From: Polytrichum commune
Taxonomy: Eukaryota; Streptophyta; Polytrichopsida; Polytrichales; Polytrichaceae
NCBI GenBank assembly: GCA_950295325.1
Contig: OX485803.1
Span: 74,911,554-74,975,553 of the forward strand
Length of the DNA stretch: 64,000 nt
Direction of reading: 5' to 3'
The notes beneath the pieces were generated by a model. That model saw only the letters and a program-made list of their open reading frames with translations, was not told the DNA's origin and made no database searches. Made by a program: the position numbers and the translations under genes. Of this stretch, positions 10,825-44,722 are shown one piece after another (position 1 is the stretch's first letter; each line of letters opens with the position of its first letter).

Positions 10825-10866
10825 GGACGAAGTTATTTGCGAGCGGTGAGCGGTGAGCGGTAACTT
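10825..10866 (+). repeat. Left terminal inverted repeat of the giant MULE
   Basis: It contains TTGCGAGCGGTGAGCGGT followed by GAGCGGTAACTT, that is three tandem GAGCGGT units. It pairs with 44680-44722 on the opposite strand; the two differ at five positions and one gap. Confidence 0.88.
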
Positions 10867-11271
10867 CCGAGATATTTTGATTAAAATGTTATTTTAAGCA
10901 GTAAATTTATGGTATTGTTGGACTAAATTTATTTTTAGTAATTTATTTTCTAAACAGTGTGACCTATGACCGTGGACAATTAAGGGCTCTGATACAAGAA
11001 AAAATGTTATTGTATCAGTGAAAAATATGGTTTAGGGTGTTAAATTGAACATTTGGAACTAATATCAGTAATAAATATGGGTTTGTCTCAAGTCAAACAC
11101 GTATTGTTTCAGTATAATGAGAATTAGTGGTACTCTAAAAAGGTCACGCAACTTTGGAACAACGAAATACATGTGGTGCGTCAAATGTCTTGTAGTGGCC
11201 CTTTTAGTCTCACTACATCATGATTATAACAAATCTTACATACATATGTTACTTTAAAGAAACAGAAAACT

Positions 11272-14200
11272 CTAAGAATCAAGGTACTTCAGCAAACCAC
11301 CTTCCAAAACTCGCTTCACTTCGTTGAAGCTAAAACCAGCTGCATGAATGAACGTGTCTGATTCTGAGTCCAAACCACAGACTACAGTAAACAAATTGTA
11401 CAAATGCTTATAGTTGGCCCATTGACCCCTTTTTCCAATTGCTTTAGTCGCCATGTCCTTGAAGTTAGGACAAGTGCATGCTGGCAGCTGCGAAATTGTC
11501 AAGTAGTATTGCTGAACCTTTGGGGGCGTGCCGGAATCCAACGAGACGATGCATCCTAAGGCAGGGGCTGGAAGCATGCACAATTTGTGCACTTTGGCTT
11601 TCAATGATAGGGCTGAGGCACAATTATTGGCGTGTTTTGTTGACGGGGCCTTCTTGTTGCGCCTAATCAACTTTCCTGAACGCCGAGTGGGAAACTCATC
11701 CGGATATGCAGGAGTCGTGTAGCTTGCTAAGTCCAAAGGTAATGGGTGGTCCTGAAAAATTCTGGAAGGTGTCATCTCCTTCCGCTGGGGCAGTCTAAAT
11801 CCTGCGTTTTCTAAAGAGAGGATCTCTTTGCAGGTTAAGTTGGTCCCCAACTTAACCGGCCATACCTCTGGAACGTTCGGGACTGAGACCACCCACCTCC
11901 TTTTTGTACCCTTAACGCATCTCTCAATGTCGTCATTGCAGAAAAGAAAGTCTTGAGGGTCCAATATCTTCTTCATATAGTTATCCATGAGGCATGAGTA
12001 GGTAGGTGCAGCGGTGCTCTTCCCGTCTTGTACAATCCGAGCAACGCATTTCTTCTTGGTGATTGCTTGTAGAGCAAAGCAAGCCTTCGCAGATGTCTTA
12101 GGCAGCCGTGTGATGTGCCACTGGGCAGGGTTGCATAATGTCTCCTCAATCGCGGTGACATGGTGCCGATCCACCCGCTGCGGAGCGTCGTGTGTTGGAA
12201 ATTGCGGTTGGTTTTCATCTGCAGTTGTGGGAGAATCTGGAGTTGTCACAAGAGGTGGAGAATCGTTCAGTCGGGCAGATCTGGTTTGGACGCGTGGTCG
12301 GGATATACTGATCTTGTCTGGCCTGTGAGATTCACGTTCGTCACCGAAAGCAGTATCCGGTTTACGCTTCAGAGAAACAAATACCTCTTCCCCTTCGAGG
12401 TGGGGAGTCCTGGTGCACCACTCGTCACCGCCAGGCATCTTCAAGATGGCCTCATGCAGTGGTTTCGAGATTCCTGTTTTTACGGCAGACCTCTGAGCAC
12501 GCCTCAGCTTCAATTCCTCCTTCGACGGTCCAGTTCCAGGGTTCTCTCCCTTTAGGAATTGGGAATATGCTGAGCACTGCATGAAAGCACGCACGAAGTC
12601 ATCGATTGTTGCCACATAAAGGTTGCTGCCCCGATCGCCAGATTGTTGCTTCCACTTGTTGTGGATAGATTCAGCAAGGTTACAGGATGGCATTTCCGCT
12701 AGTTCAGCTTCACTTAGATCCTGCAATGCCCATACAGTCCGAATTAGAATAATGGCGGAATCAATGTAGTTGAAGCATAAAGTGGGAACTATACAGGAAA
12801 TATAGAGGGAAGCATAGACTTACCAACTCCATAAATCCACCCCATTGGCGGTAACGGAAATGCCAGAAGGCCAGCCAGAGCTCCAGTCGAGGTAGACCTT
12901 GTTCAGTTGTTGCCCTGGATGACATCCACCATGCCCGAATTGCCAAATACTTTGTCTCGGCCTCCGCCATCGATTTTGCATTCTTGTATTGCTGGCATAG
13001 TATTCGATGTTGATGTTGTAGGTCTTGACGGATATCGGCCTTGGTATGTTTCTCCAAGGACTGCGTCCAATGGAAAAGACAAGTCCTCTCTCTATCCACC
13101 ATCTTCTCAGACACATCTCCACTTCCGTATATGATTCGAACAGCATTCCAGTTGGCTTGGGCACTGTCGGCCATGAAACCTTTAAATTTGACTTTGTCCA
13201 CTCCATGTTGAGCCATGAGAGCGTTCAGGTTCTTCCATACCACTGACTGGGCTGCAACATCTTCAGACTGCATGTCGCATACTGCGATGGTCATGACACG
13301 GCAATATGTGGAATCGTACACATGGCAAGCCATTGTCGTCCACGACCTGACACGTTTGACATGGTCAAACATTATCCAGGAGTTCTCCAAGTCACCACCG
13401 GGTTGCATTCGTTTGACAAGGTCGACTCCGCTGCCCGGTCCAACTTCAAACATCTTGAAGACAAAGACCTTGTCCATGTCCGTTCCTTGCCCTGGAAACC
13501 TATTCTGTTGCACGAACCTCCAATTACTAGCACCGCGTAACTTGGTAATACTGTCCATGACTCCAAAGCGACGCATAGTCCTGAACGTGGTGATTGCGTT
13601 ACGAATGTTGGGCGAGGTGAGGTACTTACACCGATCGAAAATAACTTGCAGCTCGTCCAGCTCCAAGATCTTTTGTGGGTCACCTTCTTTAGCAAGGAGG
13701 AGTGGGCCCAGTACTTCCTTTGCAGTTTTAAGCACAATAGCGGAGCGAGTGGCTGATGGGGTGCGTTCGACTTGATCCCCAATCAAGGTGTTTGTCAAAT
13801 CGATGAAGTCCTGATGATCACCTGACTTGACGGGATGGTCGTGAGATCCCAAGTGCACACAAGCCCTCGTCATGTGAGGTGTCGCGGTAACATAGTAGAT
13901 CTTGGCAGTGCAGACAGCAACATAGGTGGGAGGGACGTTACATGATTTGCAAACAACGGTCGAACCAGTTGGAGGCTTGGAACCCACTTCAAACAATTTC
14001 TCAGATAATCCTTCCCACTCTGTTTCATTCACTTTGGAAGTCCTATGGTCTCCCTGAAGATACTCACAGGCAGGATTGTCGCAACAGAGGTGGCCCAAAC
14101 AAGAAGATGCACGAAACAAAAGCTTCAGATCATTTTGAATATTGGATGTAATTGTGCGAGTCCAAGCATGACCATCGTACCTTCTATCCATTCCACGAAG

Positions 14201-14914
14201 CAACTTGGCCTTTGTATTATGGCCATGGTCACCTAAAGGTGGAAACTCGAAGATAACGTCCCCATCGTAACGAGGAGGAAGGTAATCAACCTGCTGGAGT
14301 CTGATCGCATCAAAGTTAATTTGAGATAACACACTTTTGGACCGCTTACGAGCTCCAAGGCGCATCAATGAATGAATGATACTGACAAGAGGACTTGCCA
14401 CAACCTTGGCCTGACCAGGATTAGGAGACGGACTAACAGGAGGAGTTGTTTCCTTGCGAACTACTTGTGGAGACAACGAAGCTTGGACTCTGCTCGCTGA
14501 TTTTAAGAATTCAACATCACCGTCGGAATCATCACTCAACTCATAAATTGTATTTAGACCGGGCTCAATTTTGACCTTAGACAGCACCGGTCTCTCAATG
14601 CTAACAGTGGAAGACTCCTTGGGTGTTAGAAGTTCAGTGGAACACTCAAATATAGACTCGGAGACTCCATATACACGATATTTTCCAGGCTTCAACAACC
14701 AGAACGTACCGACGTCATTATCTACTCTAGTCTGACGAACTGCATGTGAAACTAGACCGGTATGATCGTCAAAAACTTCTTCTTCGACAAAGATAGTGAC
14801 CTCACGATATTGAAACCTCAAACTCAATGTTGCACAAGTGACTATAGCATGACCGTCTTCACCTAATGGAAAGAGGACCGGAACAGAATGAGGTTCAGCA
14901 TGAAGCAGGGCCAT
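11272..14914 (-). CDS. MULE-type transposase with SWIM-like zinc finger, two or more exons
   Basis: Exons run 14914-12824 and 12720-11272 on the - strand, joined by a clean GTAAGT donor and TTGCAG acceptor. The start at 14914 (MALLHAEPH) is provisional; an upstream exon is possible. Order: a disordered N-terminus; a GCM/WRKY-like zinc module (SCLGHLCCDNPACEYL, about 14050-14110); the RNase H-fold transposase core with D in IMFDHVKRVRSW (about 13370), D in GFMADSAQANW (about 13165) and H in TCLFHWTQSLEKH (about 13075); the exon junction; then a SWIM-like finger, CTCPNFKD ... YKHLYNL (11391-11480). The third metal ligand, normally Cys before x-His, is Tyr. It is fully open across about 1,180 codons. 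It lies 0.4 kb from the left inverted repeat, so it probably drives this element. Confidence 0.85.
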
Positions 14915-17048: not shown

Positions 17049-17049
17049 A

Positions 17050-18479
17050 ATAAGGTAGACACCTATACCTGCCGAGGGAGACATTTATGGTGAGGGGGAG
17101 GGTTGACGGTTGAGGGTGAAGGTGAGGGTTTTGTGTCGTTCTTGGAGTTCTTGAAATCTGATGTGAGGTCTAGATATGGACGTATTAAGGTCAAACTGAT
17201 GTGAGGTTAGATATGTGGGTTACAAGTGTTAGGTTTTCTAAGGTTAGTTAGCTATGTTGGGTATTAGGGTAATCTGATGTAAGCGTAGAAATTTTGAAAT
17301 TCTAGGGCCGAGTTTCAGTGTCTCGGTGCCAAGCCACAATTTCTGGTTTTCAAACTGTAAACCCTACAATCATATTTGATATGGAAATCTAGATTTACTT
17401 TGTATAAGGGTACTCTGATATGAGACTACACATGTGTGTTTGAAGTGAAATATGATATGAGGTCTAGATATGCTAGTATTAAGGTCAAACTGATGTGAGG
17501 TTAGATATGTGGGTTACAAGTGCAATCTGATGTGAGGTCTAGATATGCTAGTATTAAGGTCAAACTGATGTGAGGTTAGATATGTGGGTTACAAGTGCAA
17601 TCTGATATGAGGTTAGTTTGGACTTGTGGGTATACGAGTAATGTGATTTAATTTTTGAAATTTTTGAAATTCCACGGCCGAGTTTGAGTGTCTCGGTGCC
17701 GAGACACAATTTTTGGTATTCAAACTGTAAACCCTACAATGATATTTGATATGGAAATCTAGATTTATTTGGTATAAGGGTACTCTGATTTGACACCAAA
17801 CATGTGTGTTTGAAGTGCAATCTAATGTTAGGTCTAGATATGCTAGTATTAAGGTCAAACTGATGTGAGGTTAGATATGTGGGTTACAAGTGCAATCTGA
17901 TATGAGGTAAGTTTGGACTTGTGGGTATAAGGGTGATTTGATGTAAGCTTAGAAATTTTTGAAATTCCAGGGCCGAGTTTGAGTGTCTCGGTGCCGAGAC
18001 ACAATTTTTGGTATTCAAACTGTAAACCCTACAATGATATTTGATATGGAAATCTAGATTTATTTGGTATAAGGGTACTCTGATTTGACACCAAACATGT
18101 GTGTTTGAAGTGCAATCTGATGTGAGGTCTAGATATGCTAGTATTAAGGTCAAACTGATGTGAGGTTAGATATGTGGGTTACAAGTGCAATCTGATATGA
18201 GGTAAGTTTGGACTTGTGGGTATATGAGTAATGTGATTTAATTTTTGAAATTTTTGAAATTCCAGGGCCAAGTTTGAGTGTCTCGGTGCCGAGACACAAT
18301 TTCTGGTATTCAAACTGTAAACCCTACAATCATAGTAGATATTGATATCTATATATGCTTGTTATAAGTGTACTCTGATATGATGTTAGAAATGTTTGTT
18401 AGAAGTGTAATCTAATCTAAGGTTTGAGATCTGTAAAAATAGGTAGGTTTGAAATTGAATTTTAGAGTTGATTTCTAGT
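17050..18479. repeat. Satellite-like repeat block with palindromic motif (left block)
   Basis: Diverged tandem units of roughly 290-370 bp contain phrases such as TCTGATGTGAGGT, TTAGATATGTGGGTTAC and a dyad TGTCTCGG-N2-CCGAGACA. The dyad is at 17689-17706, 17984-18001 and 18279-18296, with a degenerate copy near 17319. The same family fills two introns of the ParB-methyltransferase gene. Short ORFs here are repeat translations, not genes. Confidence 0.88.
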
Positions 18480-18484
18480 TTCTC

Positions 18485-20358
18485 TGTGAGCCCAAAAGGG
18501 TGCCCACATTTAGTCTTAGACCCTTGAAACGTTAGTTGATGCACTTTGAAGTAGCATGTTACTTCACAAAAATATAAAAAGAGTGAAATGTTAGTCTTAG
18601 AAGTACCATGTTGTAAGAGGCTAGGATGTGAGTTGTTATTGTGTTTTTACCTTCGGAAGGATTTGAGTGAATGAGGATAGGTAAGGAGAACTTGGATTGA
18701 GTAGTTAGTGAGTAGGCTAGTACAAATGGATGGAGACAACCAAAGTGACTCAAGAGGCAAGTGCATTCGAATTGGGATGAATGGAGGATCACATGGAGCG
18801 CACAAGTGGACCACCTCATCATGGCCACTTAATGGGGAAGGCCCAAGGAAGAATGCAAGGTGGAGGATAAGCAAATTCTCAAAGCACCAATCAAATCACG
18901 AGTTAAGCATCGTGGTTTGAATTAAGTGGTGAGCGACGATTTGGGAAAGTAAGGGGAGAAAGTTATGGCGGCGGAAAGCGAAGGAGGCTAAGTTTGGGTT
19001 GAAGCATCCCAAGTTTGGTAAAGTGTGGTAGGTAGAAAGCCAAGGCTAGTTAAATGTTCGAATTAGGATCTTTGTTGATCATTTGAGGGAGGAAGGCTTA
19101 GAAGATAGGATTGGCGCCTACTAAGTAGGAGGAAATCTCAAGGGCTTATCGTGAGCCTTGAGGGTGCTCACCCCCTCAAGCTTACTATATAATCCCTCAT
19201 TCTTCCCTCACTCATCCTCTCTTTCCTTTGTGCTCCAAGGCACCCCACGAGTTATAAGTGTGGGTGTGGGAAGCCATATTGGAGCACATGTGTGTGCTTA
19301 GTTTTTAGTTTGAGAGCCAAGGCTTGTTAGCCTTGAAGAGGGCTTGACCTCTTGGTAGAATTAGTGTTGACGTGAAGGATTTTAAAGTTAATTCATGATT
19401 CCAATTTGTGGTACTTAAAGTTCATGTTTTGAATACACGTGGTTGCAAGTTCCATGTTTAAGAGTTGAGCACTTGATGTTGTGATGAGTGCAAAAATATA
19501 CTTGTGTGGATTAGTTAGTCTTAGTGAAGTTAGGAAATTCTCTCTCCCCCTCTCCTCTAGGATTTTAGGATTTTAGGATTAGAGAAGAATTGTGTGATTA
19601 GAAAGGGGTTGTTAGTAGAATTAGGGAAATTAGGTAGGAAGATTAGTTAAGGGCTTGAATAATTAGTGAGGTAGTTGGGGATTACAACTACAAAGTTGTG
19701 GGTTCATGAAGGAGCTGGGTTTGTTTAGTTAGAAAGTAAAGAGCTGGGTTTATGAAGGACCTGGGTTTATGAAGGACCTGGGTTTGTTTAGTTAGAAAGT
19801 AAAGAGCTGGGTTTATGAAGGACCTGGGTTTGTTTAGTTAGAAGCTAAGGAGCTGGGTTCATGAAGGAGCTGGGTTTATGAAGGAGCTGGGTTTGTTTAG
19901 TTAGAAGCTAAGAAGCTGGGTTTATGAAGGAGCTGGGTTTATGAAGGAGCTAGGTTTATGTAATTAGAAAGTAAAGAGATGGGTTCATGAAGGAGCTTAG
20001 TAGATAGCCTACCTAATTAGCTCATAGACAAGTAGTTAGTTACATTATGCTAGTTAGTGTTATGTGTGGCTTTCACAAGTAAATGTATTTGAGATTGACT
20101 ATAGAGAATAGTGTTTTTTTTAACACTTGCATCCTCTCTTTAAAAATAAACCACGTGCACAACTTAATGGAGAATGTGGAGCACTCTCGCGATGGCAAGA
20201 CAAAGGAAGCAAAGACCAAAGTTAAATCCAAGACCACTTGAAGGGTGAACCTTGCACTATGGACTCATCCAAGTCCAAATCCAATACCGCGGAGGAATGT
20301 GAGCCCAAACCCACTACTCGGACTACGGACGCTTAAGGGTGGGGGGTTTGGCCTCACA
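18485..20358. mobile_element. Solo LTR, 1.87 kb, TGTGAGCCC family
   Basis: It starts TGTGAGCCCAAAA and ends TTTGGCCTCACA, with 5-bp duplication TTCTC (18480-18484 and 20359-20363). Removing it rejoins a satellite unit of the surrounding block (TTCTCGGTCCCGAGAG). Its body from about 18950 to 19375 is closely similar to 46200-46560 in another solo LTR. It contains a tandem array at 19700-19990 and no gene. Confidence 0.88.
19700..19990. repeat. GAGCTGGGTTTATGAAGGA tandem array
   Basis: About ten diverged copies of a short phrase (GAGCTGGGTTTATGAAGG) alternate with TTGTTTAGTTAGAAG. It is part of the solo LTR. Confidence 0.85.
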
Positions 20359-20363
20359 TTCTC

Positions 20364-20640
20364 GGTCCCGAGAGACTATTTGAGACTATTAAACTCTTCC
20401 ACCTCACTATGACTTTAGGGGCTATAAGTGTAATATGATATAAGTGTAACCTGATATGAGTGTAATCTTATATAAGTGTAACCTGATATAAGTGTAATTT
20501 GATATATTGTAAATTTGCAATGTGAGCTAAGAGGGTGATCCGATGTAAGGATCACTATTTCATGAGTTGAATATTTGTGCCTAGTACTAGTGTCTCGGTC
20601 CCGAGACATATCTTTTGATGGTCAAACAATACCACATACA
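20364..20640. repeat. Remainder of the left satellite block
   Basis: TAAGTGTAA(T/C)CTGATAT repeats and one palindrome (TGTCTCGGTCCCGAGACA, 20591-20608) follow the solo LTR. They continue the block at 17050-18479. Confidence 0.75.
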
Positions 20641-21095
20641 GATAGATAGATAGATATGAACACCTGCCCTCTGGGGGGGGGGCGTGAATAGAGTGTTTGT
20701 TCGTCCCGACAATGAGCCAGAGTCCACAGGACAAGGGATCATTGTATCGCGACTACTCTCCCCTTTCGGGAATAGACACTTTAGTGACTGGGGATAGGTA
20801 ACAACAACCTTAGTGGGGTTGATTCGTCGTATGGGTGTATATGGGGTTTGGCTTTTGTTTTAGGGCACCAAGTCATGGTTCCAAGGTTGGTTGGAATGTT
20901 TGTACTACCGTTTGAGCGGACCGGGTTCGATCCCCTTCGTGTCCGTTTGAGCGTTCTAATTGTAAACATGGCTTGGTGCTGCTAGTGATTTTTATCATAG
21001 GCAGGAAAGTTTGTTGAGAACCAGCCGGCCCTATCCCTTCTCCTGAGACGATTGGACACTTTGAGCTAAATTTGTATTATAAATAAAGTGTTTTT
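20641..21095. other. Unassigned stretch with a tRNA-type B-box
   Basis: There is no ORF of note. GGGTTCGATCCCC at 20923-20935 matches an RNA polymerase III B-box, but I find no convincing A-box at the right distance and no cloverleaf. It may be the remnant of a tRNA-derived SINE lying beside the LINE 3' end. A GATA microsatellite is at 20640-20656 and a G-run near 20675. Confidence 0.3.
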
Positions 21096-21166
21096 TTAAT
21101 TTTTTTAATTAATTAATTAATTATATATATATATTCCTTTATGTACTTGTGCATTTTTGTGTTGTT

Positions 21167-21943
21167 TTATTGGTCAGGGGGTAGAGATTGGTTGTTTTCT
21201 ATTTTTCTTTTATGTAGAATAATTGATCCAGCGTGTTGTATGGCAATGGTGTTGATTTCCTTGAATGTGTGTTTAATGGTGGCTTCTGAAATTTTGAAAT
21301 TTGTTTCGAGGAGTTTCATTGAGGGAGTGTGGGTTGTGCCTCTAGCTCCTGCTGTTATAACTATGAGTGGGTCGATTTTCCAGCCTAACTCCGCAATGTT
21401 GTTTATTAGGGGTTGATATTTTTGGATTTTATTAGTAATTGTTTCTTGTGGGAATCTGTCGTTACAATAGGTAAATTCAATGAATTGTATTGTGAGGTCG
21501 TCTGATGGGTTTGATGGTGGGTTATTATTGTACGGATGACCTTTTACGCATAGAATGACTGGTTTAAATCTTGCATTACAATGACATCTTTGTTGTACAC
21601 AGGAGCATGCTAATAGCCATGGGGGTACTGTATCTTCTTGGGAGTTATTGTTAAATGTTCCTGCGTTCATGAGGATATAGCATCTGGACTTTTTTGATGA
21701 TAGGATTAGTTTCCTCAGTTCCCATACTGCTTTGTTGTGTCTTTTCACTCTTATGGCATGGATATGATGGTGGTTACATTTCAGTGGTACGTGGAGCCAT
21801 GTGTCCGCATCTTCAGAGTTACAAATAGGGCATGTTATTGAGGGGAATCTCTCTCTACCGAAAAATAGTTGTTTTCTTGCATTACCCATATATTGGCCGG
21901 TGCGGAATTTTAATATATTAGTTTTTTGTGCATCTGTGATCAT
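21167..21943 (-). pseudogene. LINE ORF2 C-terminus with zinc-knuckle motif
   Basis: The frame continues the RNase H region with one break at about 21950. It contains CPICNSEDADTWLHVPLKC, a C-x2-C-(x)-H-(x)-C motif typical of LINE ORF2 tails and thought to bind RNA or DNA. A second Cys-rich stretch (CSCVQQRCHC) and a basic C-terminus follow, ending at 21167 about 70 bp before the A/T-rich tail. It is of normal character for the end of ORF2; no catalytic function is expected. Confidence 0.75.
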
Positions 21944-21952
21944 AGTGTTGTG

Positions 21953-22837
21953 CTAGAAAGCATTGGATAGTTCATTATTAATGTTTGGGTTCATGGTCCA
22001 TTTGCTAATATTGGGGAATTGGTTTGTCATGACTGCAATGTTATTTTCCTGGTCATGTTTGGTTAGGTATGTTTGTAGACATCTCACAGGACCCTTATCT
22101 GGTCGTTTTAAAGGACCTGGCCATATGTCTTTTTGGAAATAAAATGGTGTAGTATGTGCATGTTCGTATGGTTTTGAGGCGATGGAGTATATTTTTCTGG
22201 CTCCTATTTTTGCAAGTTTGTCTGCTTGTTCGTTTCCTGTTATATTAATATGTGCTTTGACTTTGTGGAATGTAGTGGGTTGGGTGCGGGTTTTTAGTAT
22301 TTCTACCATGTTTTTTAATATTGTTTTATCTGGGTGGTTACTGTGCGTAGTAGGATGCTTAATGTGTGTGTTTAGGTTATACAGGCAGTTGAGGCAATCT
22401 GTAAATATATGTGCGGGTTCGTTTGGGTATTTTTTGGATATTAATTTGAGTGTTTTATGGATGGCCATTAGTTCTGCTCGAAAACATGTTTGTAGTCCTG
22501 GTAATCTTTTCGCTCTTTGCATGTCTGTCTTGGTTGAGTTGTATATTCCATATCCTGCTTTTTCTTTTTTCCAGTGTCTGTCAACTTTTTGGGTGGGAGG
22601 TATGAAGGAGCCGTCAGTATAGTAGCAATGTTGTGGTTGGAATTTGAGTGTGGTGTTTGTTGCGAAGTTTGGGAGTGGTGGTGTGTTAATTGTGGTTTGG
22701 TAGGTTGCGGGGGGGTATATGAGCTTATTCCATTTTTTGCTTTTGTTGACTAGTGTGTTGAGTGGGGTGGGTGGGACGTTGTGGAGGTAGTATTGTGGGA
22801 TTTGTAGGTTTTCAAGTATTGTTCTAAGTGGGTCCAT
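21953..22837 (-). pseudogene. LINE ORF2 RNase H domain
   Basis: The four RNase HI positions are visible: D in YYTDGSF (about 22610-22625), E in FRAELMAIHKTL, D in HIFTDCLNCL and the final HI/D block KVKAHINITGNEQADKLAK. The N-terminal part (QMDPLRTILENL, then SKKWNKLIYPP) is the linker from the preceding domain. The protein would remove RNA from RNA-DNA hybrids in target-primed reverse transcription. All four catalytic residues remain, so loss of function comes from breaks elsewhere. Confidence 0.88.
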
Positions 22838-26385: not shown

Positions 26386-26529
26386 TGGTATGGTTTTTGT
26401 GATGTAAATTGCTTTCCTTATGAGGTGGTATGTAGACAGATGTTTTTTCCATTGTTTTTGTAGTTTTCTTGGCAGGAATCCTCCCTGTTGAGTTGTGCGG
26501 TGTGTTAGTGGAGGCAGAGGGGGGGCGCT

Positions 26530-32610: not shown

Positions 32611-34863
32611 TCTGAAAGTAAAAAGACTTTGTGTTAATAGTTTGAAGGCATTTTGTTTTATAGAGTTGCTCCTTGTAATCTCTAGGTCTTCTTCTCCCCA
32701 CAATTTAATTTGTGGGGCCGGGTGAAGCATGACTTTTGAGAAGGAGATGTGAGTTGTTTTGTTCCAACATTTATGCATATAGGAGTAATGAGTGTAAGAG
32801 AGGGTGGAGCAGTAATTCGTTTGTATGTCTACATAGTTACTTACTTTCCTAAAGGTGGGCATGCATGTTTGGGACCAGCTCTTATTCACTTCTGATCGGT
32901 GGCCATAGGTGTGTGCTTTCAGAATAAGCATGTCTATGTAGTGTACATTGGTGTAACAGACATTCCTAGGTCTAATACTAAGACGTTTATGTGAGTTGAG
33001 GATAGTATAACAGAGGCCGCTAATTGGTGGGATTTTGTGTAAAAAACCTGAGCTGTCTTCTTTGTTCACCGATGACTTGCTGAGACGATCTGATGCTGTC
33101 GTACTTTGGTTGTTCTTCGCTCCTCGGCCCCTCGCACCTCTGCACTCTGCCGGTTCGGTGTAGTGGTGTCTGTGTGCGACTCTCCTGTTGCTGGGCGGTT
33201 TCTCCCGAGTTGATTCTCCTCGCGCTCCGGTGGTAGCTGCTCCTCGCTGCTCTGCTTCCCCGCTGTGGCTTCGCTCCGGGGTCGTCTCCGTGTGGTCTGC
33301 AGGGCCCTCGCTCACTCTCTGCGGGGATCTGATACTAATTTTTTTCCTACGCTCTAGGGGCTGCTTTCTGTCTATTCTAAGGGGTGTTTCTACTAAATCA
33401 TACGCTATTCTGTTGTTTCTAGGACTACGAAGTGAGTAGTATCTTGAGCAGGGTTTTGACGAGAGGTCCGATCTTATCAAGTTCGGGAGGGGGGTGAAGA
33501 AGAGATGTAGTCGTAAGCTGTTGTGGTTGAGAGGTTGTGTGTGTATCTCTCTTTTATAATGGCCGGTTGGGGCTGTCTTTGGTCGATGTTTTCTGTCGTG
33601 TGGGTTGGACAATATTGGTACCTGCAGTGACATCTTGTTTCTTCTGTTACATTTTCGGTGGAGCCGGCTCATGCTTCTCTGTCTTCCTATTTTGGTTGTA
33701 ATTCTTGATCTTTTGGCGGTTACTACTGCCATACCTTGTTTGTCATCGGTATTTATGGTGCTCTCATCTTCAGTGTTTTTCCTGTGATGCCTTTGTGATG
33801 CCTGTGGTGTGGTTGCTATGTTTCTCCTTGTTGATTCCTCCTCTTGGTTGAGTCTGTTGTGGTGCTGGGTTGGTGATTCAGCGTTGCTCATGGTGGGTAC
33901 GTGTTTGCTGGGCTCCGATGTTGTGGGTTCGCTGTTGATTTCCTCCGTTATAGAGTCGGTGCTGTCTTTCCTCGGTGCAGGGTCGGTGTTGATTTTGTCC
34001 AATCTAGGTTTGATGGGGCTGATTGTCGGTGCAGGGTCGGTGTTGTCCGTTTCTGGTGTTGAGTTGGTGTGGCAAGGCTTCGGTGTGGGGCATGTATTGT
34101 GTGTTGGTGTTGGGGGATTGGTGCTGATGTTGCCTAATGTCTTGGAGTCGGATTTGGTTGTGGTCTTGGTGGGGCCGTTGTACTTCTGTTTGATGGGCGG
34201 CTGTCTCGTTTTCAGCAGATTTCTTATCTTCTCCTGTCTGCAGGTGGTTAGGTTCCTTACCTTTGCAGGGACGTTGTGGCTGCGTCTGTTGGGTAGTTGT
34301 TTACGTTGGGCCGGTGTCTGTTGTTCGCCTTGGCTGTCTGTACTGTTACGTTTCGTTTCCTGTGGGGCAGGATCTGCATGGTTGGGTTTTGAACGTACCT
34401 TACCCAGCAGCATTTTTCGATGTTGGGCCGGTGTTTGTTGCTCGCCTTGGCTGTCTGTACTGTTTCGCTTCGTTTCATGTGGGACAGGATCTGCATGGTT
34501 GGGTTTTGAACGTACCTTACCCAGCAACATTTTTCGATGTTGGGGTGGCGTCAAATGGGTTGAATGTTTCCTTTGTCTTGGTGGGTCGCATTGGGCTGCC
34601 TGTTGTATCTTTCCTTGCCGTGTTTGGGTTGTGGGCTGGTCGTTTTGGTGGTGAGCTCTGGCTTTTTGTGACATTTGTTGATACGGCGTCTGCTGATATT
34701 TTGATGGGTGCTGCAGGTTGGTGTGACTCGCCTGGTGTTTTTTGGCGTTGACAACCTGTGCGCCTAGGGGTTGCACATGTGCTGTACAAGGAGACATTTC
34801 TATCATGTGCATGGTTAGTGTAGACATTTTGTTAGTGTAGGTAGGGCTATTACATATTTGCAT
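32611..34863 (-). other. LINE 5' region
   Basis: It is open on the - strand for 751 codons, but with repeat-like, low-complexity translation, so I do not call it coding. It contains a 117-bp tandem duplication at about 34304-34540 and a GC-richer segment at 33120-33330. This is the likely 5' untranslated and promoter region of the LINE. Confidence 0.5.
34304..34540. repeat. 117-bp tandem duplication in the LINE 5' region
   Basis: Two near-identical units each carry GTTGGGCCGGTGT, GCCTTGGCTGTCTGTACTG and TTACCCAGCA. Translated on the - strand, each unit yields the same 39-residue block. Confidence 0.9.
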
Positions 34864-35528
34864 AGGAGATTTGTATGTGTCAACCTATGAAGTAAAAATC
34901 AATTGCAAAGGTGGTGTAAGAGTGCTCAAGCATGTATGTTGGTGTTTGAATCTCTTGGTGTGTCTTGCGTGTGTGATCTGGGGGCGAGTTGGATCTGGTG
35001 AGGAGTAGCCTAGGAGTTTGGATCTCTGCACTTGAGTCAGGAGCCTGGTAATCTAGTTTTGGACAAGCAATGGTGTGAAAGAGTAGCCCAGCCTACTCTT
35101 TCTTTTGGCGCAACACTCGCCTTTTGCCAACACTCAACTAATTATTTTCCTGGTACATCTACACATAACAATGCAGAAGTCTGACCAGAAGTTTTTAGAT
35201 CTTGATCTACAAGAGCTTCCAAACTAAAGCATACTTGTATATCCACCTTACCATTGCTTGTTTCAACGACGCCCCAGCGCATCTACTAGACTCTTCATGC
35301 TCCTTGTCAAATGCAACGCTCTTCGCTCATGAGGTAGAGAGTTTCTTGTCCAACTCTCTGTGGCTTCCTCCCAGATCCATCTGCCTTCCCCTCACCGCAC
35401 TACGCGGAGCTCCTCCATCGGCCCTTGTTTCCGGTGTATACCACATACACTTATAACTGATGGCAACTGAGCTCATGTTCTCTCCTTGATTAACTAGTAC
35501 ATATATTTTGCAAGTAGAGAACAACGCA
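34864..35528. other. Gap between the LINE and the ParB-methyltransferase gene
   Basis: I see no gene I can support. Short frames exist on both strands (for example 35202-35456), but none has a recognisable domain. The promoter of the downstream gene should lie here. Confidence 0.4.
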
Positions 35529-38500
35529 ATGGAGGATGTTCCTGCTCTTTCTCTGTTTTCTCTAGACTATTCTGAAGAGGGTCAGAATGAGGATGAAGAG
35601 GGGCTTGGAGATAGAGATTCATATGAAGGAGATGAAGATGATATCAGGACCCGACAAAAAACTTAGTTCTGTTGCCACGATTTCTCAACTGAGAGTCCAA
35701 CCCCTGAGTTCCTCAAGGTTCCCTATTCCCTTGTGCAGAATGTTGGCCATGCCCATGGTGAGGCCAACTCTCCCAAGTGATCTTGCTAAATTGGAGCAGG
35801 AGTTTGTGCATGGGTATAGAGAGGGTGCCTCGGTATTTTATGTGACAATAACAAATGAAGAAGGGAAAACACATGAGGTTACTGAGGCTGATAAAACATC
35901 GTGGGATCCTATTTGGAGTGCCAAAAATGAACAATTCAACTCCTTTCTTCTGTCCGTTCCAGAGTTAGCCGGTTTTACGAATTTGATGTTCTTTGTTTGT
36001 GACGGGAACCATAGGCGGCAGGCTTGGTTGAATCATATTGAACGACTTCACAAAACAGAAGAGTCCTGGCATTTTTTGGTGGATAGCATCCTCCTTGACA
36101 CCAAGGGAAAAATTGGTATTGTTATGCAAGTTATGCATAATATCAACAAGTAAGTTTTCTAAGTCCATTTTTTGAGGTTTTCATCTATGTACATATATTA
36201 TGTTGTTCTTGTCTTTAATATATGATTGTTACTTGTAGACATACGGAAGACTCTCACGTGAAGACAAACACAGTTCACACTCTATTTAGGATGCAGAAGT
36301 ATGGACTTATGCCGCTCGAACAATACCAAGACATTTTGACTCCCTCTGACATTAAAAGGTGCAAGAAATCTCAAACTTCAAAGAAGACATGGTATTCATT
36401 AAATCTACATGTATTCACGAGCTTCATCTTCCAGGTATGATGTGATGTTGATGCTTGATGATGTGATTACTTTTATATCTAATCCCTTTCAACATTTGGT
36501 ACTTATAATTGATGTTTGAATGTTTTTGTTTCTTTATGTGCTTTCATAACACCTTTTTGTCGCAGTTGTTTGATTACAAACTAACTATGGTAATCCCTTT
36601 CCAGCACGAACTGGCACTTGCTGCAGATGAAGGCGTTCGTCAACTTCTTGAGCAAACGGATGGAGAGGTGTCTGCTGCTGAAAAAGCAGCCGCCATGAAG
36701 GTCGCTGCTTCAAAGAGAGCCGAGGCACTTCATAAGAAAATGTCAAAACTAGTTTGTGTGGCAAACCTAGACTTGACAGATGGATGGCTTCGGGAGGTAT
36801 GTCCACTACTTTAAAACCCATTCTACATTTTTCAAGTAATTCATTAATCTCCATGATCTTAATATATTGCTCTATAGGTCACAGATTGCGCGTCACTATA
36901 CTCTTAACTCAATTGCACCCGAGCTCAACTTAGAGAAATTGCAGTTGATCGCTACTGCAAAAGCATCACCCGCTTGTAAAATCAAATGGTTGGAATATTT
37001 CAATTCCTCTTCATCAACACGTGAGGCTCGCAAACTGCCAACCAAGCCCACCAATGAGGACAAATTGCAGGCATTCCTAGCCAAGGCATGTTTTTGGGAA
37101 GGAGTGAGTACATAATCCCCTATGTACCCTTCAGTTCGGTGTTACTTGATTTGATCCCTTACATTAATTGGTCTTTCTCTTGGTTTCACGGTTATTTCAA
37201 TATATGAATCGATGTTGCTCAAATTCTTGTTCATATTCACTCTCTGTATATACAGATATCCGATCAGGCTTCCATTATATTTGAAGACACTTTGCGCCAA
37301 GACAGACTTGCTATCAACTTTGCACTACCCAGCGAGCCCTTGACCTTGGTTGCATACATCGAGGACTGTAGAATGAAATTATGGGACAACGCGTTTCCCA
37401 CATTCTTCCGAGGGCAGGAGGCCTTTAACAAAACTCACGAATTTGAGGGATTTAACGGGACAGACTTGATTGTCCGAAGAGTTATCTTCGGTGAGTTCTC
37501 TCCTTTCATACTACAGTTCTATATGTGTGTTATAAGTGTACTCTCATATGATGTTAGTATGCACTTTGAGGTATTAGGGTAATCTGATATGAGGTTAGAA
37601 ATTTGTGTTATATGTGAAATCTGGTGTGTGCTCTACATTTGGTTGTATTAAGGGTTATATGTGAAATCTGATATGAGGTTATATATGGTTGATATAAGTT
37701 TAATCTCATATAAGGTTAGTTAGCAATGTTTGATATCTACATGTACTTCTTATAAGTGTACTCTGATATGAGGCTAGATATGTGTGTTATAAGTGCATTA
37801 TGATGTGATTTCTAGATATGCTTGTATTAAGGTCAATCCGATATGAGGTTAGATTTGTGTGTTATAAGTTTAATATGATGTGAAGGTAATCTGATATAAG
37901 CTTAGTTAGTGATATCTGATATAAGCTTAGTTAGTGACATTAGTTAGGGCCTAGTTTCATATAAGCCTAGAAATCTCTGAAATTCCAGGGCCTGGTTTGA
38001 GTGTCTCGGTCCCGAGACACATTTTCTGGTCTTCAAACTCTAAACCCTACAATGATATTTGATATTGAAATCTAGATTTACTTGGTATAAGGGTACTCTG
38101 ATATGAGGGTAGAGATGTGTGTTTGCAGTGAAATATGATGTGATGTCTAGATATTCAAGTAGTAAGGTCAAACTGATGTGAGGTTAGATATGTGGGTTAC
38201 AAGTGCAATCTGATATGAGGTTAGTTTGCAATTGTGGGTATAAGGGTAATCTGATTTAAGCTTAGACATTTCTGATTTTCCAGGGCCGAGTTTGAGTCTC
38301 TCGGTCCCGAGACACATTTTCTGGTATTCAAACTCTACTACCTATAATCATAGTAGATATGTGTGTTATAAGTGCATTCTGATGTGATTTCTAGATATGT
38401 TTGTATTAAGGTCAATCCGATATGAGGTTAGATTTCTGTGTTATAAGTGTAATATGATGTGAGGGTAATCTGATATAAGCTTAGTTAGTGATATATGATA

Positions 38501-41500
38501 TAAGCTTAGTTAGTGACATCTGATATAAGCTTAGTTAGGGTAGTCTGGTTTAAGCTTGGTTAGTGCAATCTGAGATTAGCTTAGGTAATGAAATCTGATA
38601 TAATCTTAGTTAGGGGAGTATGATATAACCTTAGTTTGGGTAACCTGATATAAGCTTAGTTAGGGCCTAGTTTCATATAAGCCTAGAAATCTCTGAAATT
38701 CCAGGGCCTAGTTTGAGTGTCTCGGTCCCGAGACACATTTTCTGGTATTCAAACTCTACTACCTACAAACATGGTTGCTATTGATATCTACCTATACTTG
38801 GTATAAGTGTACTCTGATATGAGGCTAGATATGTGTGTTATAAGTGCATTCTGATGTGATTTCTAGATATGTTTGTATTAAGGTCAATCCGATATGAGGT
38901 TAGATTTCTGTGTTATAAGTGTAATATGATGTGAGGGTAATATGATATAAACTTAGTTAGTGATATCTGATATAAGCTTAGTTAGTGACATCTGATATAA
39001 GCTTAGTTAGGGTAGTCTGGTTTAAGCTTGGTTAGTGCAATCTGAGATTAGCTTAGGTAATGAAATCTGATACAATCTTAGTTAGGGGAGTCTGATATAA
39101 CCTTAGTTAGGGTAACCTGATATAAGCTTAGTTAGGGCCTAGTTTCATATAAGCCTAGAAATCTCTGAAATTCCAGGGCCTAGTTTGAGTGTCTCGGTCC
39201 CGAGACACATTTTCTGGTATTCAAACTCTACTACCTACAAACATGGTTGCTATTGATATCTACCTATACTTGGTATAAGTGTACTCTGATATGAGGCTAG
39301 ATATGTGTGTTATAAGTGCATTCTGATGTGATTTCTAGATATGCTTGTATTAAGGTCAATCCGATATGAGGTTAGATTTGTGTGTTATAAGTGGAATATG
39401 ATGCGAGGGTAATCTGATATAAGCTTAGTTAGTGTTATATGATATAAGCTTAGTTAGTGACATCTGATTTGGCATAGTGTTTTGGTTTTTAATATGGCAG
39501 CTATGTCAATTGCAAGGTATTTAATGATGAGCTGTGTCTTTCCCGCAGGTATTTCAAGTACGAGCTCCTTGCAAAAGGAACAATAACAAAAGAAGATCTC
39601 CATATATTCCTCTCAGCATGGCTTGACAGGTCTAACTCCACGTGCATGTTCTCAGCAAATCAACAGCGTACATGGTCAACCTCACATCTCACTGGAGGTG
39701 GTTGGTACCTTGACTGTGCTCCTAGTTTCACTCCTTCCTTTGAAACTGAACTTAGGAAGTCAAAGGAGGCAGTTGGAGAATCTGGTGTTGAGATGATTGA
39801 CTTACAGGGCATAGAAGACGAGCATGAGAGGGCAAAGGCCCTATCCCGACGTCTAGAAGAGGATAGGAAGAAGGCGCTTAGAGTAAAGGAAGTAGAGGAG
39901 AAAGCCGCACAGAAAGAGATGGAAAAACTTCAAAAATCATTGGAGAAGACTACCATGAAGGGGAAAAAGAAGATGAACCCCCATTCTGAGGTAGAAGGTA
40001 AGAGTCCCGTTGCTCCAAGTCCAACCTATGAATCTGGTTCTCATGCTCCAACATTTTCTAGAGGAACAAAACGCGATTCCTCCTATGAGCAGTTGAGTCA
40101 AATTCCTATTTTGACATCGGGGGAGGAGCTCGATATCCATATTCAAGAACTCATTCTCAACGCCTCAATGGAGGACGTTCTTGGCGGTGACACGGAGGAA
40201 TTCACCCCTTCCTACAACGAGTTGAAAAGATTCATGCTCAAGGTACTGCTCTTCCTTAATTTTGTCATAACATGTTTGCATTTAAATTTATGCATTTCAA
40301 TGTGGTCCACATTGAACATTCAGTAGGTACTACTTTTCATATTTCAGTAATCGGCCATAATTTTTTTCGGGACCGAATCATGGATCTGACGAGTAAGGTT
40401 GGTAGGGTATAGTTTATGCGGGACCCAAACACCATGTGGAGTGCGAGCTGAGCCCTCAATGGACTCGGCAATTTGTTTTGTGCTTGCAATCGGCCATTTG
40501 TTTTGTTGTACCATTTTGTTTGTGGAAATTAGGAGTTGAAATATGAATGGTGAGGTGTCATGTTAATTTTGAACTTTTTTAGTCGGAACACTGTTTAAGT
40601 GAAATCCCCGCCCTCACTGAATTCTACCTTCTCTGAAATATGATGTGAGGTCTAGATATGCAAGTATTAAGGTCAAACTAATGTGAGGTTAGATATGTGG
40701 GTTACAAGTGCAATTTGATATGAGGTTAGTTTGCAATTTTGGGTATTGGGGTAATATGAGGCAAGTTTAGAAATTTCTAATTTTCCAGGGCCGAGTTTGA
40801 GTGTCTCGGTCCCGAGACACATTTTCTGGTATTCAAACTGTAAACCCTACAATGATATTTGATATTGAAATCTAGATTTACTTGGTATAAGGGTACTCTG
40901 ATATGAGACTACACATGTGTGTTTGAAGTGAAATTTGATGTGAGGTCTAGATATGCTAGTATTAAGGTCAAACTGATGTGAGGTTAGTTTGCAATTGTGG
41001 GTATAAGGGTAATCTGATTTAAGCTTAGACATTTCTGATTTTCCAGGGCCGAGTTTGAGTGTCTCGGTCCCGAGACACATTTTCTGGTATTCAAACTCTA
41101 CTACCTACAATCATAGTAGATATTGATATCTAGATATGCTTGTTATAAGTGTACTCTGATATGATGTTATAAATGTTTGTTAGAAGTGTAATCTGATCTA
41201 AGGTTAGATATATGTGTTGTAAGGTCTATCTGAACTGGGGTTGAATATGGGTGATATTACTGTAATCTGATGGGAGATAAGATATCTGGGCTATATCTGT
41301 TATCTGATATCGGGTTAGATATGTGTGTGATATGAGGTTAGATATGTGTGTTATAAGTACAATTTGATGTGAGGTTATATTCGCATGTTATAAGGTCAAT
41401 CTGATATGAGGTTGAATATGGGTGTCATAAAGGTACTTTGATCTGTGGTTAGATATGTGGGTAACAAGTGTAACCTGATAAGAGGTTAGATTTGTGTATT

Positions 41501-43097
41501 ATATAAGGTTAGTAATGAGTATAGATATGTTTGATATAAGGGCTAGTACTAGGCAATGTACAAAGCAAGGAGGATTATTTTAACACCAAACCTGGTTGTC
41601 CTTTGATTGTGCAACACTCAAAAGACAAAACCCGGCACTACAAGGGTTCTCCGGATGACCATCCCTGTTTGGACTTGATTCTTGCAGATATACCGGAAGG
41701 TCTTCCTGTTCCTGGCATATCAAACCCACCGTCGTCCATTCCCGCTTGGAATCAAGAATCGAAAGAGTGGTTACAACCACTCTTTGACTTTGCCGACGAA
41801 CATCTGCATGACGACGGGGCAATTATTTTGTTTCACCCTTTTCGCATGAGTACGAAGTCCAATATTCTTGGATATTGCAAATCGTATGGTTTTGCAATTC
41901 GGAAAGAGTGGTGGGGAATGAACCGCCTTCATCTTACATCTCCAATAAATCCAGGATCAACTGTAAGATAAAGCTTAAGTCTTCTTTCTGATCACCGCAT
42001 TCAGTTTCAATTTCATCCTTGAGGTAGTTCTGAGTGTAGACCCACCTAACTATTATACTCACGCAGTTCTGTTGTTCACTTTGTAAAGTAATATTGATCT
42101 TTATGTCTGGTACATTATAGACCATGAGGTTCGGTATTTCATTGGCAGTCAGGAGCGTGCCGGGGTCACCTGCATCGAATTTTTCATTTCGCCATGTCCC
42201 TGAATTGGATCCTTATGGGGTGGATGTTGCACGGGATGATATTCTCCAGAACTTGGTCTCTCGTGAGGACCAGCTAACTAATGGATCCACACCATGGCGA
42301 GGGCCTCGTGAAAAATCCGTGCTTCTAATGCAAATGCTAATTGAAGCATGTAGCTCCCCATGGGATATTATTCTAGACTGCACGGCAGCGACCGGTATGT
42401 CTTTGTAATCTTGCATTTCAGTTGGTTAATTGTTAATATTGTTTTGTTCTACAAAATTCATAGTGGTTTTTGTACTAAGTTTTTCCAACTTCTTTATTTG
42501 CAGGATCTTCCATTCATGCATGCCGCAATGTGCACCGTCACATTGCGGCATTAGAGGCTGATGTAGATATTTTTGAGGCCGTACTTGCTCCATTGATTAT
42601 CTCTAGAGTAGCCTCTGAAGTCACTCTTGAAGACCGTGTCACCAGTGTAGAGGATCCTGAGGGTGAAGATATTCCCGTTGAGAGGATTGTGAAGAGATCT
42701 CGGTTTACTAAGTGAGTATGGTCCACAAATTCTCTTACCAGTGTTATGTTTTTTGCTGTCATTTCTTCTAAAGTTGAGTTATGAACATGGTACCATTGGC
42801 ATTTGCAGTTGCGATAAATTGAGCTATCCTATTCACCGGCCTTTTTTTTGTGACCCTAAATTCTATCCCAGCCCTCCAAAGTCTTGGCAACTTCCTACAT
42901 ATGCAAATGTTATTGCTAATCAACTAGCTGGAGGTTCTTATCAGACTTTTACATCTAAATATCATCTGGGAAGAGTTTTAGAGTTTTTGGATATAGAAGC
43001 TTTAGAATCAGATGGTCAGGCCTCCTCTGATGCATATATTAGTGATTCTAGAATGTCTTCATCATCACGTGATCACAGTGATTCGGATCTGATGTAA
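35529..43097 (+). CDS. ParB-like domain / coiled coil / DNA amino-methyltransferase-like gene, ten exons
   Basis: Exons by GT-AG sites: 35529-36149, 36239-36434, 36566-36796, 36885-37103, 37256-37490, 39549-40242, 41570-41962, 42121-42394, 42504-42711, 42809-43097. An acidic start (MEDVPALSLFSLDYSEEGQ) is followed by one frame slip near 35650. ParB/Srx-like motif: FFVCDGNHRRQAWLNH (35985-36033). Exon 6 holds a Lys/Glu coiled coil. The C-terminal half looks like a beta-class N4/N6 methyltransferase: LDLILADIPEGLP (41675-41710) at the DPPY place, then ILDCTAATG-SSIHACRN ... IAALEAD (42370-42560) at the FxGxG SAM site. The DPPY motif reads DIPE, so activity is doubtful. The 37490/39549 junction does not keep frame; a missed micro-exon or indel is likely. 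It probably methylates or binds DNA for the host transposon. Confidence 0.72.
37491..39548. repeat. Satellite-filled intron of the ParB-methyltransferase gene
   Basis: This 2.06-kb intron is made of the same repeat family as 17050-18479. It includes a near-perfect tandem duplication with a period of about 473 bp (38345-38770 repeated at 38820-39245) and palindromes at 38002-38019, 38719-38736 and 39190-39207, plus a variant near 38296. The donor is GTGAGT and the acceptor CCCGCAG. Confidence 0.88.
40243..41569. repeat. Second satellite-filled intron of the ParB-methyltransferase gene
   Basis: The intron has donor GTACTG and an acceptor near 41569. The first 370 bases are unique. From about 40620 the satellite family resumes, with palindromes at 40802-40819 and 41060-41077 and diverged TCTGATATGAGGTTAGATATG phrases to 41560. 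Confidence 0.82.
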
Positions 43098-44679
43098 TAG
43101 CTTCATGTGAATGTCTGTGTACTATCTAATATACCGGTTTTTCTTCCGTTGGTTTTTCAATTTGTGCACTCATTCCGCATGAAATTCATTGTATTTGTAT
43201 TACTTTCGGAATTTATGGGATTGCATATATAAAATTGCAGATTTAGGTTAACTTTTGACTTCGTGTTTTTTGATATTGTTCACTTAATTCCATAATCGGC
43301 CTATTAGTTCATACCCTTCTCTTTGAAATTTAAGGGTTTCCACTATTCTTCTATTATCGTTTTCATATATTTTTTCAATGCTTGCTTACGATTTTAGGCG
43401 AATGTTGGGTTGAATAATTCACCATCAACCTCACCATTAATGTCACCTCATGAAATTTGGCATTCAAGTGTCTTGACTAATATCTCAGCATTAGTATGTT
43501 CCACAATGATATGAAGTGCACACCTATATTACACAATGGTCTACAAGTTGACTAAAGTGTACACCAACAACACTTGACATTGGTATGCTCAAGAATATCT
43601 TCCCCTTGCATACTTCAACGCGGTCTAACAAACTTTTAGTACATATAGATCCATCTCTAGTTAATTCTACTAGAATAATTCAAGGTCTTTGATCTTGATT
43701 AAGGTGTTAATTGGGTTTAGACCAATCATTCACATGTTCTACATGATAATTAGTTTCTTTGCTCTCCCCTTTAGTAGGTGTCAGGAAACTTTAATCCCAA
43801 TCAAGGATCAAACATTATGGCAATACTATGAGTTGAAGGTGACAAAAAGTTTATTGTTTAATATCGCTTAGGTTTTTAATTATTAAGACATAATTTACTT
43901 TAGACTCATGATCATAGATATACTCCAAATGAGGTTAGAATATGCAATTTTAATGTCAAAAACTTCCAAGTTCACATAGAATTGTGGTCATTGGATTGGA
44001 TCATAATTTTCCCATTTGGCTAGCGACTGAGAACCAAGAAAATTTTTATTTCATGTTTCAAAATTGAAGTTGAGATGCCAAGGTTATAATAAGTCAAAGT
44101 GAAGAATTTAATTTTTTTAAATGATGACTCGAGACCTCCTAGTTGTGTTGAGTGTTAAACCAAGAAGGCTTGTGCTTAAAATATGGACATCATCCTAGGT
44201 TTTATGTTCAACACAATTGCTCTTCTTAAATAACCACCTATATTTGAGTGGTATATAGTAAGGTGTTGTTGTTAGAGGAACATGTTGTAAACACTTCCAA
44301 CATTTTCAATTTCTTTAATATTTTCTTTAAGTTTCTTTCAACATTTTAAGTTTATGCTCATATATATATATACACACACATACAAACGGATGGGTCTTCA
44401 TGGGCATTACGTGTGAGGCCTGCAGCATTGGGGTTTGGAGATTCCCTCACCACAATAGATGGAATCTTACTTGCTAAATTGCTAGAGGTTGTCATGAAAT
44501 TGTCGTGGTCAGGTAATATCCTGAACCTCCAAGAAGGTGCAAGCAAATACTATATAGGTTCCTCCACCACGGTTATAGGTTATTTTTGTCAATAAATTTG
44601 TCAATAAATATTTCAAAAGTTAGCTCTACACCACGGCCATAGGGCATGTTTCACCTGACAAAATTTCAATATTCTAGAA
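43098..44679. other. Right flank of the giant MULE, no gene seen
   Basis: AT-rich sequence between the methyltransferase stop and the right inverted repeat. There is a short TA/CA microsatellite at 44358-44392. No ORF of note and no recognisable element. Confidence 0.5.
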
Positions 44680-44722
44680 AACTTACCGCTCACCGCTCAC
44701 CGCTCGCAAAATAGCTTTTCCC
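44680..44722 (-). repeat. Right terminal inverted repeat of the giant MULE
   Basis: Read on the - strand it starts GGGAAAAGCTATTTTGCGAG and contains the triple GAGCGGT unit, matching 10825-10866. Confidence 0.88.

Follow-up and report, generated by a model that had tools for sequence, protein, structure and literature searches.

Boundaries of the insertion and its nested LINE

The window, by which we mean the whole 64-kb stretch of DNA analysed, contains an insertion with inverted repeats at its ends that carries two spliced genes, arrays of tandem repeats and a nested LINE (Table 1). As the preliminary description had stated, a transposase gene, here resolved into two exons, adjoins the left end; next to the right end is a spliced methyltransferase-like gene, here called the cargo. 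The two genes run outwards from the centre of the element. In a search for a third gene in the 15.2-20.6 kb region, the longest ORF had 132 codons.

The insertion is flanked by a perfect 10-bp target-site duplication, TTTCTCCACT, within the 8-11 bp expected of a MULE. The same 10-mer occurs once more in the 64-kb window, at 56403, and the core of the inverted repeat is absent from that site. The inverted repeats span about 50 bp and align locally with a score of 60, whereas the best of 500 shuffles scored 27. They include a perfect stretch of 28 bp, TTTGCGAGCGGTGAGCGGTGAGCGGTAA, in keeping with the terminal repeats of most MULE families, and its 23-bp core was found at the two element ends only (64-kb window). 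The outermost five bases of the two ends match partly (GGACG vs GGGAA). Both the duplication and the inverted repeats had been claimed earlier, and together with the transposase fold they support the original reading of the locus as a Mutator-like transposon.

The size of 33.9 kb given in that description is correct for the span of the insertion, but "this large" overstates the element, as 14.8 kb of the span is a LINE. Since the LINE lies inside the insertion with a 12-bp duplication of its own, 19,089 bp belong to the MULE itself. The LINE contains an upstream ORF (for which we found no Pfam match), a 2A-like GDIETNPGP, an endonuclease, a reverse transcriptase, a PCIF1-like stretch and an RNase H. 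The window is rich in retroelement pieces. Removing the whole insertion does close the minus-strand frame KVEK-LQIAG (92 codons), as had been noted before; because a minus-strand frame at least as long was obtained at 29.6% of 20,000 sites drawn at random from the DNA outside the element, we rejected the closing frame as evidence.

Table 1. Features of the insertion, with positions in the window.
Feature	Position	Strand	Remarks
Target-site duplication, left copy	10815-10824		TTTCTCCACT
MULE insertion	10825-44722		Defined by ends and target-site duplication; span includes nested LINE
Left terminal inverted repeat	10825-10880	+	About 50 bp; three GAGCGGT units
Transposase exon 2	11272-12720	-	Region of catalytic E; C-terminal SWIM-like zinc motif
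Transposase intron	12721-12823	-	103 bp, GT-AG
Transposase exon 1	12824-14914	-	53 relatives; fold matches
Intergenic tandem repeats	17155-20640		Intact palindromes at 17691, 17986, 18281, 20360, 20593; degraded at 17321
LINE duplication, left copy	20629-20640		12 bp, ATACCACATACA
Nested LINE	20641-35437	-	14,797 bp; not part of MULE
LINE duplication, right copy	35438-35449		12 bp
Cargo exon 1	35529-36149	+	Acidic N terminus, then conserved domain with FFVCDGNHRRQAW; 249 relatives
Cargo exon 2	36239-36434	+	
Cargo exon 3	36605-36796	+	
Cargo exon 4	36885-37103	+	
Cargo exon 5	37256-37490	+	
Cargo intron 5	37491-39500	+	2,010 bp in model; tandem repeats; 4 palindrome sites
Palindrome sites, cargo intron 5	38004, 38299, 38720, 39192		
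Cargo exon 6	39501-40242	+	
Cargo intron 6	40243-41569	+	1,327 bp; tandem repeats; 2 palindrome sites
Palindrome sites, cargo intron 6	40804, 41062		
Cargo exon 7	41570-41962	+	Exons 7-10: beta-class amino-methyltransferase-like domain
Cargo exon 8	42121-42394	+	
Cargo exon 9	42504-42711	+	
Cargo exon 10	42809-43096	+	
Right terminal inverted repeat	44670-44722	-	
Target-site duplication, right copy	44723-44732		TTTCTCCACT

The transposase and the methyltransferase-like cargo

The transposase has 53 relatives in the protein database; the row set used for it (A3) held 52 of them, with P0001 left out. In the structure model of the relative P0002, exon 1 comprises a ubiquitin-like N terminus, a GCM-like zinc domain and an RNase H-like DDE core, and the fold matches were to the ISCth4 transposase and a GCM domain. 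The residues D, D, C-x2-H and E of the Mutator/IS256 DDE signature are all present, and the transposase has a fold of that type. No Pfam model matched at E ≤ 10, which counts against the Mutator assignment. In the window copy, two conserved cysteines are replaced by tyrosines, and the third cysteine of the SWIM-like motif is a tyrosine. Prokaryote genomes yielded one relative (L001), on a 4.1-kb contig that is assigned to a cyanobacterial MAG and that we infer to be eukaryotic contamination. Its intron position is identical to that of the window transposase; the 562 bases 3' of the gene showed no inverted repeat, and the end motif and the palindrome described below went unrecognised. Four scans of viral contigs found no relatives.

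The cargo gene was modelled with ten exons and faces the right end of the element. Its exon 5-exon 6 join is off by one base, which might reflect a small exon lying within intron 5, another break in the frame, or the presence of two separate genes. Compared with its relatives, the frame breaks near 35652-35666. This break and the two cysteine-to-tyrosine replacements in the transposase make the window copy look damaged, and it is probably no longer active.

The C-terminal half of the cargo is related over the whole domain to beta-class bacterial amino-methyltransferases (N6_N4_Mtase), and motif IV (DIPE) precedes motif I (DCTAATGSS), which is the beta-class order. In this one copy, DIPE aligns to DLPY of a phage relative and departs from the pattern [DNS]-x-P-[YFW]. 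Given that glutamate stands in place of the aromatic residue, methyltransferase activity appears doubtful, and we call the protein methyltransferase-like rather than filing it as an active member. The earlier phrase "own DNA-modification gene" may or may not apply: the domain is a real relative of these enzymes, but its motif IV has a glutamate for the aromatic residue. In Pfam, the cargo matched N6_N4_Mtase and DUF2379 only (E ≤ 10), with no VANC-like domain among the matches, and a comparison of the methyltransferase domain with plasmids found nothing at E 0.01.

Cargo exon 1 belongs to a conserved, many-membered family, with 249 database relatives. From the 120 of these that were listed, we drew row set A1 (21 relatives plus the window) and row set A2 (118, leaving out P0097 and P0098). 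DGNHR was found in 116 of the 118 rows of A2 and fits the DGxxR motif, presumably a mark of ParB/Srx-like domains. ParB was rejected as a firm assignment, since no significant match emerged from Pfam, PHROGs, NCBIfam, PDB sequence, fold, phage or plasmid comparisons: a PHROG ParB match to the relative P0054 was weak (E 0.42), with none for P0170; DUF1015 matched 8 of 118 relatives weakly (best 0.061); and the structure model of the domain was of low confidence (pLDDT 64), with no convincing fold match. With the full spliced cargo as query, 7,995 candidates were scored and none reached E ≤ 0.001; we suspect that the ORFs in the database, being single exons, fall outside the length limits. Prokaryote genomes held no relatives of the cargo. 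By eye, no common source was recognised between the 53 transposase relatives and the 120 listed of the 249 cargo relatives.

Palindrome arrays and a possible self-recognition role

The palindrome TCTCGGNNCCGAGA is present in 11 copies in the window, where 0.02 would be expected, though some are recent tandem duplicates of each other and the 11 sites are not 11 independent events. All lie in non-coding MULE DNA; the degraded site at 17321 is outside this count and inside our 12-row alignment. A 15-bp word of the surrounding repeat has 22 matches at up to 2 mismatches, one of them within the LINE (30596). The repeat family and the palindrome are common to the transposase side and the cargo introns, and the left repeat unit runs up to the LINE duplication. 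The earlier claim of a "dedicated multi-exon enzyme gene" is supported, within one copy, by these shared repeats and the conserved family of exon 1. Arrays are found both upstream of the transposase and in introns of the second gene, as in VANDAL elements; this is a likeness of layout, not proof of VANDAL membership.

Together, these observations lead us to favour, at a probability of about one half, a once-autonomous 19.1-kb MULE, later hit by a 14.8-kb LINE, that is convergent on VANDAL and has an accessory protein able to recognise the element itself. The second gene would encode this accessory protein, a candidate binder of the palindrome arrays, which may act only on copies of its own family through palindrome recognition. 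It might relieve silencing by the host, the part that VANC plays for Arabidopsis VANDAL elements, or write an amino-methyl mark (4mC or 6mA) on own-family copies; with the aromatic residue of motif IV lost, binding without catalysis seems at least as likely as marking. The many palindromes in non-coding element DNA suggest that the element recognises itself, perhaps to evade host silencing. Several points speak against this explanation: the transposase-cargo link rests on one locus, the palindrome may be part of the repeat's own structure, the sites are partly tandem duplicates, motif IV lacks its aromatic residue and the Pfam matches include no VANC-like domain. More tentatively, the locus could represent a complete self-directed epigenetic module, independent of VANC, in which the palindrome arrays in the element's introns and intergenic DNA would be read or marked by an amino-methyltransferase-like protein of bacterial type with a fused DGNHR (possibly ParB-like) domain.

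If the cargo were instead an active amino-methyltransferase marking the element's own DNA, with the palindrome as target or anchor, its whole-domain similarity to beta-class DNA methyltransferases would be in keeping; we find this rather doubtful, as motif IV is DIPE, in contrast to DLPY in the phage enzyme aligned to it, and a change of SPPY to APPA abolished activity in N4CMT, according to the consulted part of PMC8885841. We attach a similarly small weight to the idea that it is the transposase or the transcripts, and not the cargo protein, that make use of the palindromes (as hairpins, promoter-like or replication elements). RNA of 38690-38770 does fold to a hairpin (z -2.2, a fold matched by 4 of 200 shuffles), but the centre bases of the palindrome vary (TG or TC) with both core arms kept, and sites occur in introns and between genes alike, both of which suit a dyad-binding protein and neither of which is decisive.

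Passive capture, in which a host gene was trapped between MULE ends as in Pack-MULEs and has no role for the element, is unlikely: the cargo is a ten-exon gene facing the right end rather than a set of fragments, its introns share repeats and palindromes with the transposase side, and exon 1 falls in a conserved, many-membered family. Its appeal lies in the transposase-cargo linkage having been seen once and in the frequent capture of gene fragments by MULEs, as described in the part of PMC6431247 available to us. That two unrelated elements met by nesting, with the inverted repeats and duplication belonging to one of them, might be supposed from the retroelement pieces in the window; with the LINE discounted, however, the same repeats and palindrome are present in both halves, and the left repeat unit extends as far as the LINE duplication, making such an origin very improbable.

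Comparison with known systems

To our knowledge, VANDAL elements are the only ones with sequence-specific anti-silencing directed via their own motif arrays. If the favoured reading adds a second system with that layout but a methyltransferase-like protein, motif-array self-recognition would seem to be a general MULE strategy. Such a system would also be a concrete candidate for asking whether 4mC or 6mA plays any part in plant transposon biology, and, should the epigenetic-module reading be true, it might illustrate one route of bacterial amino-methyltransferases into plant genomes. The palindrome TCTCGGNNCCGAGA offers a direct binding assay.

MuDR of maize, of the Mutator superfamily, likewise has two genes, terminal inverted repeats and duplications of 9-10 bp. 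Its genes mudrA and mudrB start at the ends and point inwards, whereas the genes here run outwards from the centre and the second protein has an enzyme-like half.

Among the matches listed in the literature searched (titles and starts of abstracts), no MULE with a DNA methyltransferase-like gene was found, and neither the MULE survey PMC6446971 nor the 2026 review PMC13317346 uses the term "methyltransferase" in its main text. In the consulted parts of the same two sources, MULE-Phytophthora_1 (SET domain, PMC6446971) and Kaonashi MULEs (ULP1, PMC13317346) likewise carry enzyme-type accessory domains; these are of histone-methyltransferase type and a peptidase, respectively, and not DNA amino-methyltransferase-like. 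Retrotransposons with captured C5 DNA methyltransferases, as outlined in part of PMC5890265, also combine a transposon with a DNA-methyltransferase gene, while the element here is a DNA transposon with an amino-methyltransferase-like fold. N4CMT of bdelloid rotifers and MpDN4MT1a/b of Marchantia are likewise bacterial-type amino-methyltransferases in eukaryotes; the excerpts seen describe them as host genes, and their likeness to the cargo is by description only.

VANC is the anti-silencing protein of Arabidopsis VANDAL elements and binds motif arrays, according to the consulted parts of PMC5735166 and PMC10398659. As presented there, VANDAL21 and VANDAL6 have in common with the element here that they are MULEs with an accessory gene and that tandem arrays of a short motif lie in the accessory introns and upstream of the transposase. 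In contrast to these accounts of VANDAL, where the motif is a nine-base word, the motif here is a palindrome of 14-20 bp, and the accessory protein combines an amino-methyltransferase-like half with a DGNHR domain.

Ends and true size of the element

The ends reported in the preliminary description for a Mutator-like transposon were borne out. The first ~50 bases of each MULE end are inverted copies of each other, except for the outermost five (GGACG versus GGGAA), and the two ends gave a local alignment score of 60, compared to a maximum of 27 among 500 shuffled pairs. The alignment contains 28 consecutive identical bases and three GAGCGGT units. Inverted-repeat ends of this sort, combined with a 10-bp duplication, here TTTCTCCACT, characterise Mutator-like elements. 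The frame that closes over the empty site, also offered as evidence, spans 92 codons; when 20,000 random positions were drawn from outside the element, 29.6% had a minus-strand frame of this length or longer, and the closing frame therefore carries no weight.

Features of the window
Feature	Position	Strand	Details
RT-like retroelement ORF	292-822		by eye
Copia-like polyprotein	1441-5890	+	several ORF pieces, by eye
RNase H-like ORF	8595-9209		Pfam
Insertion (MULE)	10825-44722		flanked on both sides by TTTCTCCACT
LINE duplication, left copy	20629-20640		ATACCACATACA, abuts LINE
LINE	20641-35437	-	endonuclease, reverse transcriptase, RNase H by Pfam
LINE ORF ahead of RNase H	21953-23341	-	PCIF1-like stretch; PCIF1_WW match 2.6e-8, above Pfam cut-off
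2A-like GDIETNPGP	about 28.1-29.5 kb	-	ahead of LINE endonuclease; degenerate second copy (GGNIKTNLRH) in next LINE ORF upstream
LINE duplication, right copy	35438-35449		ATACCACATACA, abuts LINE
Cargo gene	35529-43096	+	ten-exon model, GT-AG introns; exon 1 start (35529) by comparison with relatives
CACA-rich 158-bp tandem repeats	51850-52607		with open frame
C5-methyltransferase-like fragmentary ORFs	60755-62309	-	ELFGGIGTGL; possibly a retroelement with captured C5 enzyme
Part of the same	61536-62309		six PDB matches, all DNMT3A, weak (E 1.3-1.5); none in Pfam

The size of 33.9 kb did not hold, as it included a nested LINE with a GATA-type tail at its 3' end. Because 12-base matches also arise by chance in the LINE-end comparison (another was found, with one copy inside the LINE), the position of the LINE duplication matters: its copies directly abut both LINE ends, the MULE repeat unit extends up to the left copy, and the 5' sequence common to cargo relatives starts about a dozen bases past the right one. 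After removal of the LINE and the spare duplication, the element proper measures 19,089 bp. The contig CADCWO010000080.1, filed under a cyanobacterial MAG, encodes a relative of the MULE transposase whose intron lies at the same place, indicating that the contig is probably eukaryotic contamination. Judging by how the elements look, and by an environmental origin assumed for this contig, the host may be a land plant, perhaps a bryophyte.

A methyltransferase-like cargo gene

Exon 1 of the cargo gene was matched by 249 of 305 candidates (E <= 0.01), and the best 120 of these showed identities from 96 down to 70% within the aligned region. In the window copy the frame is broken near 35652-35666, where all 21 aligned relatives read on. 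Column conservation, computed on 118 of the best 120 of the 249 relatives, indicated that the acidic N terminus drifts (mean identity 0.49) and that residues 58-230 are conserved (0.85), the stretch around FFVCDGNHRRQAW being the best-kept part (0.96). The DGNHR domain recalls ParB/sulfiredoxin-like domains in its sequence, and no search, including PHROG, Pfam and fold, returned a significant match for this assignment.

Exons 6-10 encode the C-terminal half, with the reading frame open through all joins. Judged by sequence, this half is related to beta-class amino-methyltransferases: it matched a PHROG DNA methyltransferase (8.5e-7), DpnA (3.6e-5) and N6_N4_Mtase (4.3e-5, yet under the Pfam cut-off), as well as Brochothrix phage methylases (5e-6 and 8e-6), whose match extends over 86-87% of the domain. 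Motif IV comes before motif I, the order that characterises the beta class. In pairwise alignment to the phage enzyme, DCTAATGSS (motif I) faced DNCMGSGTT and DIPE (motif IV) faced DLPY. As the aromatic residue of motif IV is lost, we call the protein methyltransferase-like; the element may carry its own DNA-modification gene, as proposed earlier.

Palindrome arrays and a putative accessory protein

Tandem repeats of a single family occur between the genes (17.1-20.6 kb) as well as in introns 5 and 6 of the cargo gene, and amid the repeats lies a dyad, GTGTCTCGG-NN-CCGAGACAC, with variable centre bases (TG or TC). Its core, TCTCGGNNCCGAGA, has 11 perfect sites in the 64 kb, five between the genes and six in the two introns, though some are recent duplicates and independent events are thus fewer than 11; none occurred elsewhere in the window, even when a single mismatch was tolerated. 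The shuffle expectation was 0.02, computed after the palindrome had been spotted. With 12 sites aligned, including a degraded one, the core scored highest of all 14-base windows for conservation (0.964, or 0.981 when the degraded site is dropped), and windows one or two bases off were nearly as conserved (0.958; 0.974). The core is identical in all 14 bases between sites 20360 and 20593, whose flanks are only 33% alike; with the flanks of the other intact sites, theirs agree at 45-59%.

In the simplest reading, the element would encode a self-recognising accessory protein, with the cargo protein recognising the palindrome arrays of its own element; the transposase-cargo linkage is known from one locus. 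Such a protein might remove host marks, write its own marks or act by binding alone. The descent of the domain points to writing, whereas DIPE points to binding, and we infer that the cargo protein itself may bind the palindromes.

Comparison with known elements

A survey of MULE families describes accessory SET, OTU, PMD and FAR1 domains, and the word "methyltransferase" is absent from its main text (PMC6446971); a 2026 review of plant gene capture names ULP1 and VANC (PMC13317346). Retrotransposons have acquired C5-methyltransferases (PMC5890265), and bacterial-type amino-methyltransferases are carried by rotifers (PMC8885841) and Marchantia (PMC8566409). No MULE with an amino-methyltransferase-like gene was reported among the literature matches listed. 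According to Hosaka and colleagues, the nine-base motif bound by VANC21 forms tandem arrays within VANC21 and VANB21 introns as well as upstream of VANA21, which renders anti-silencing element-specific (PMC5735166, PMC10398659). The layout here is the same as in VANDAL, its own palindromic motif being arrayed both ahead of the transposase gene and within introns of the accessory gene.
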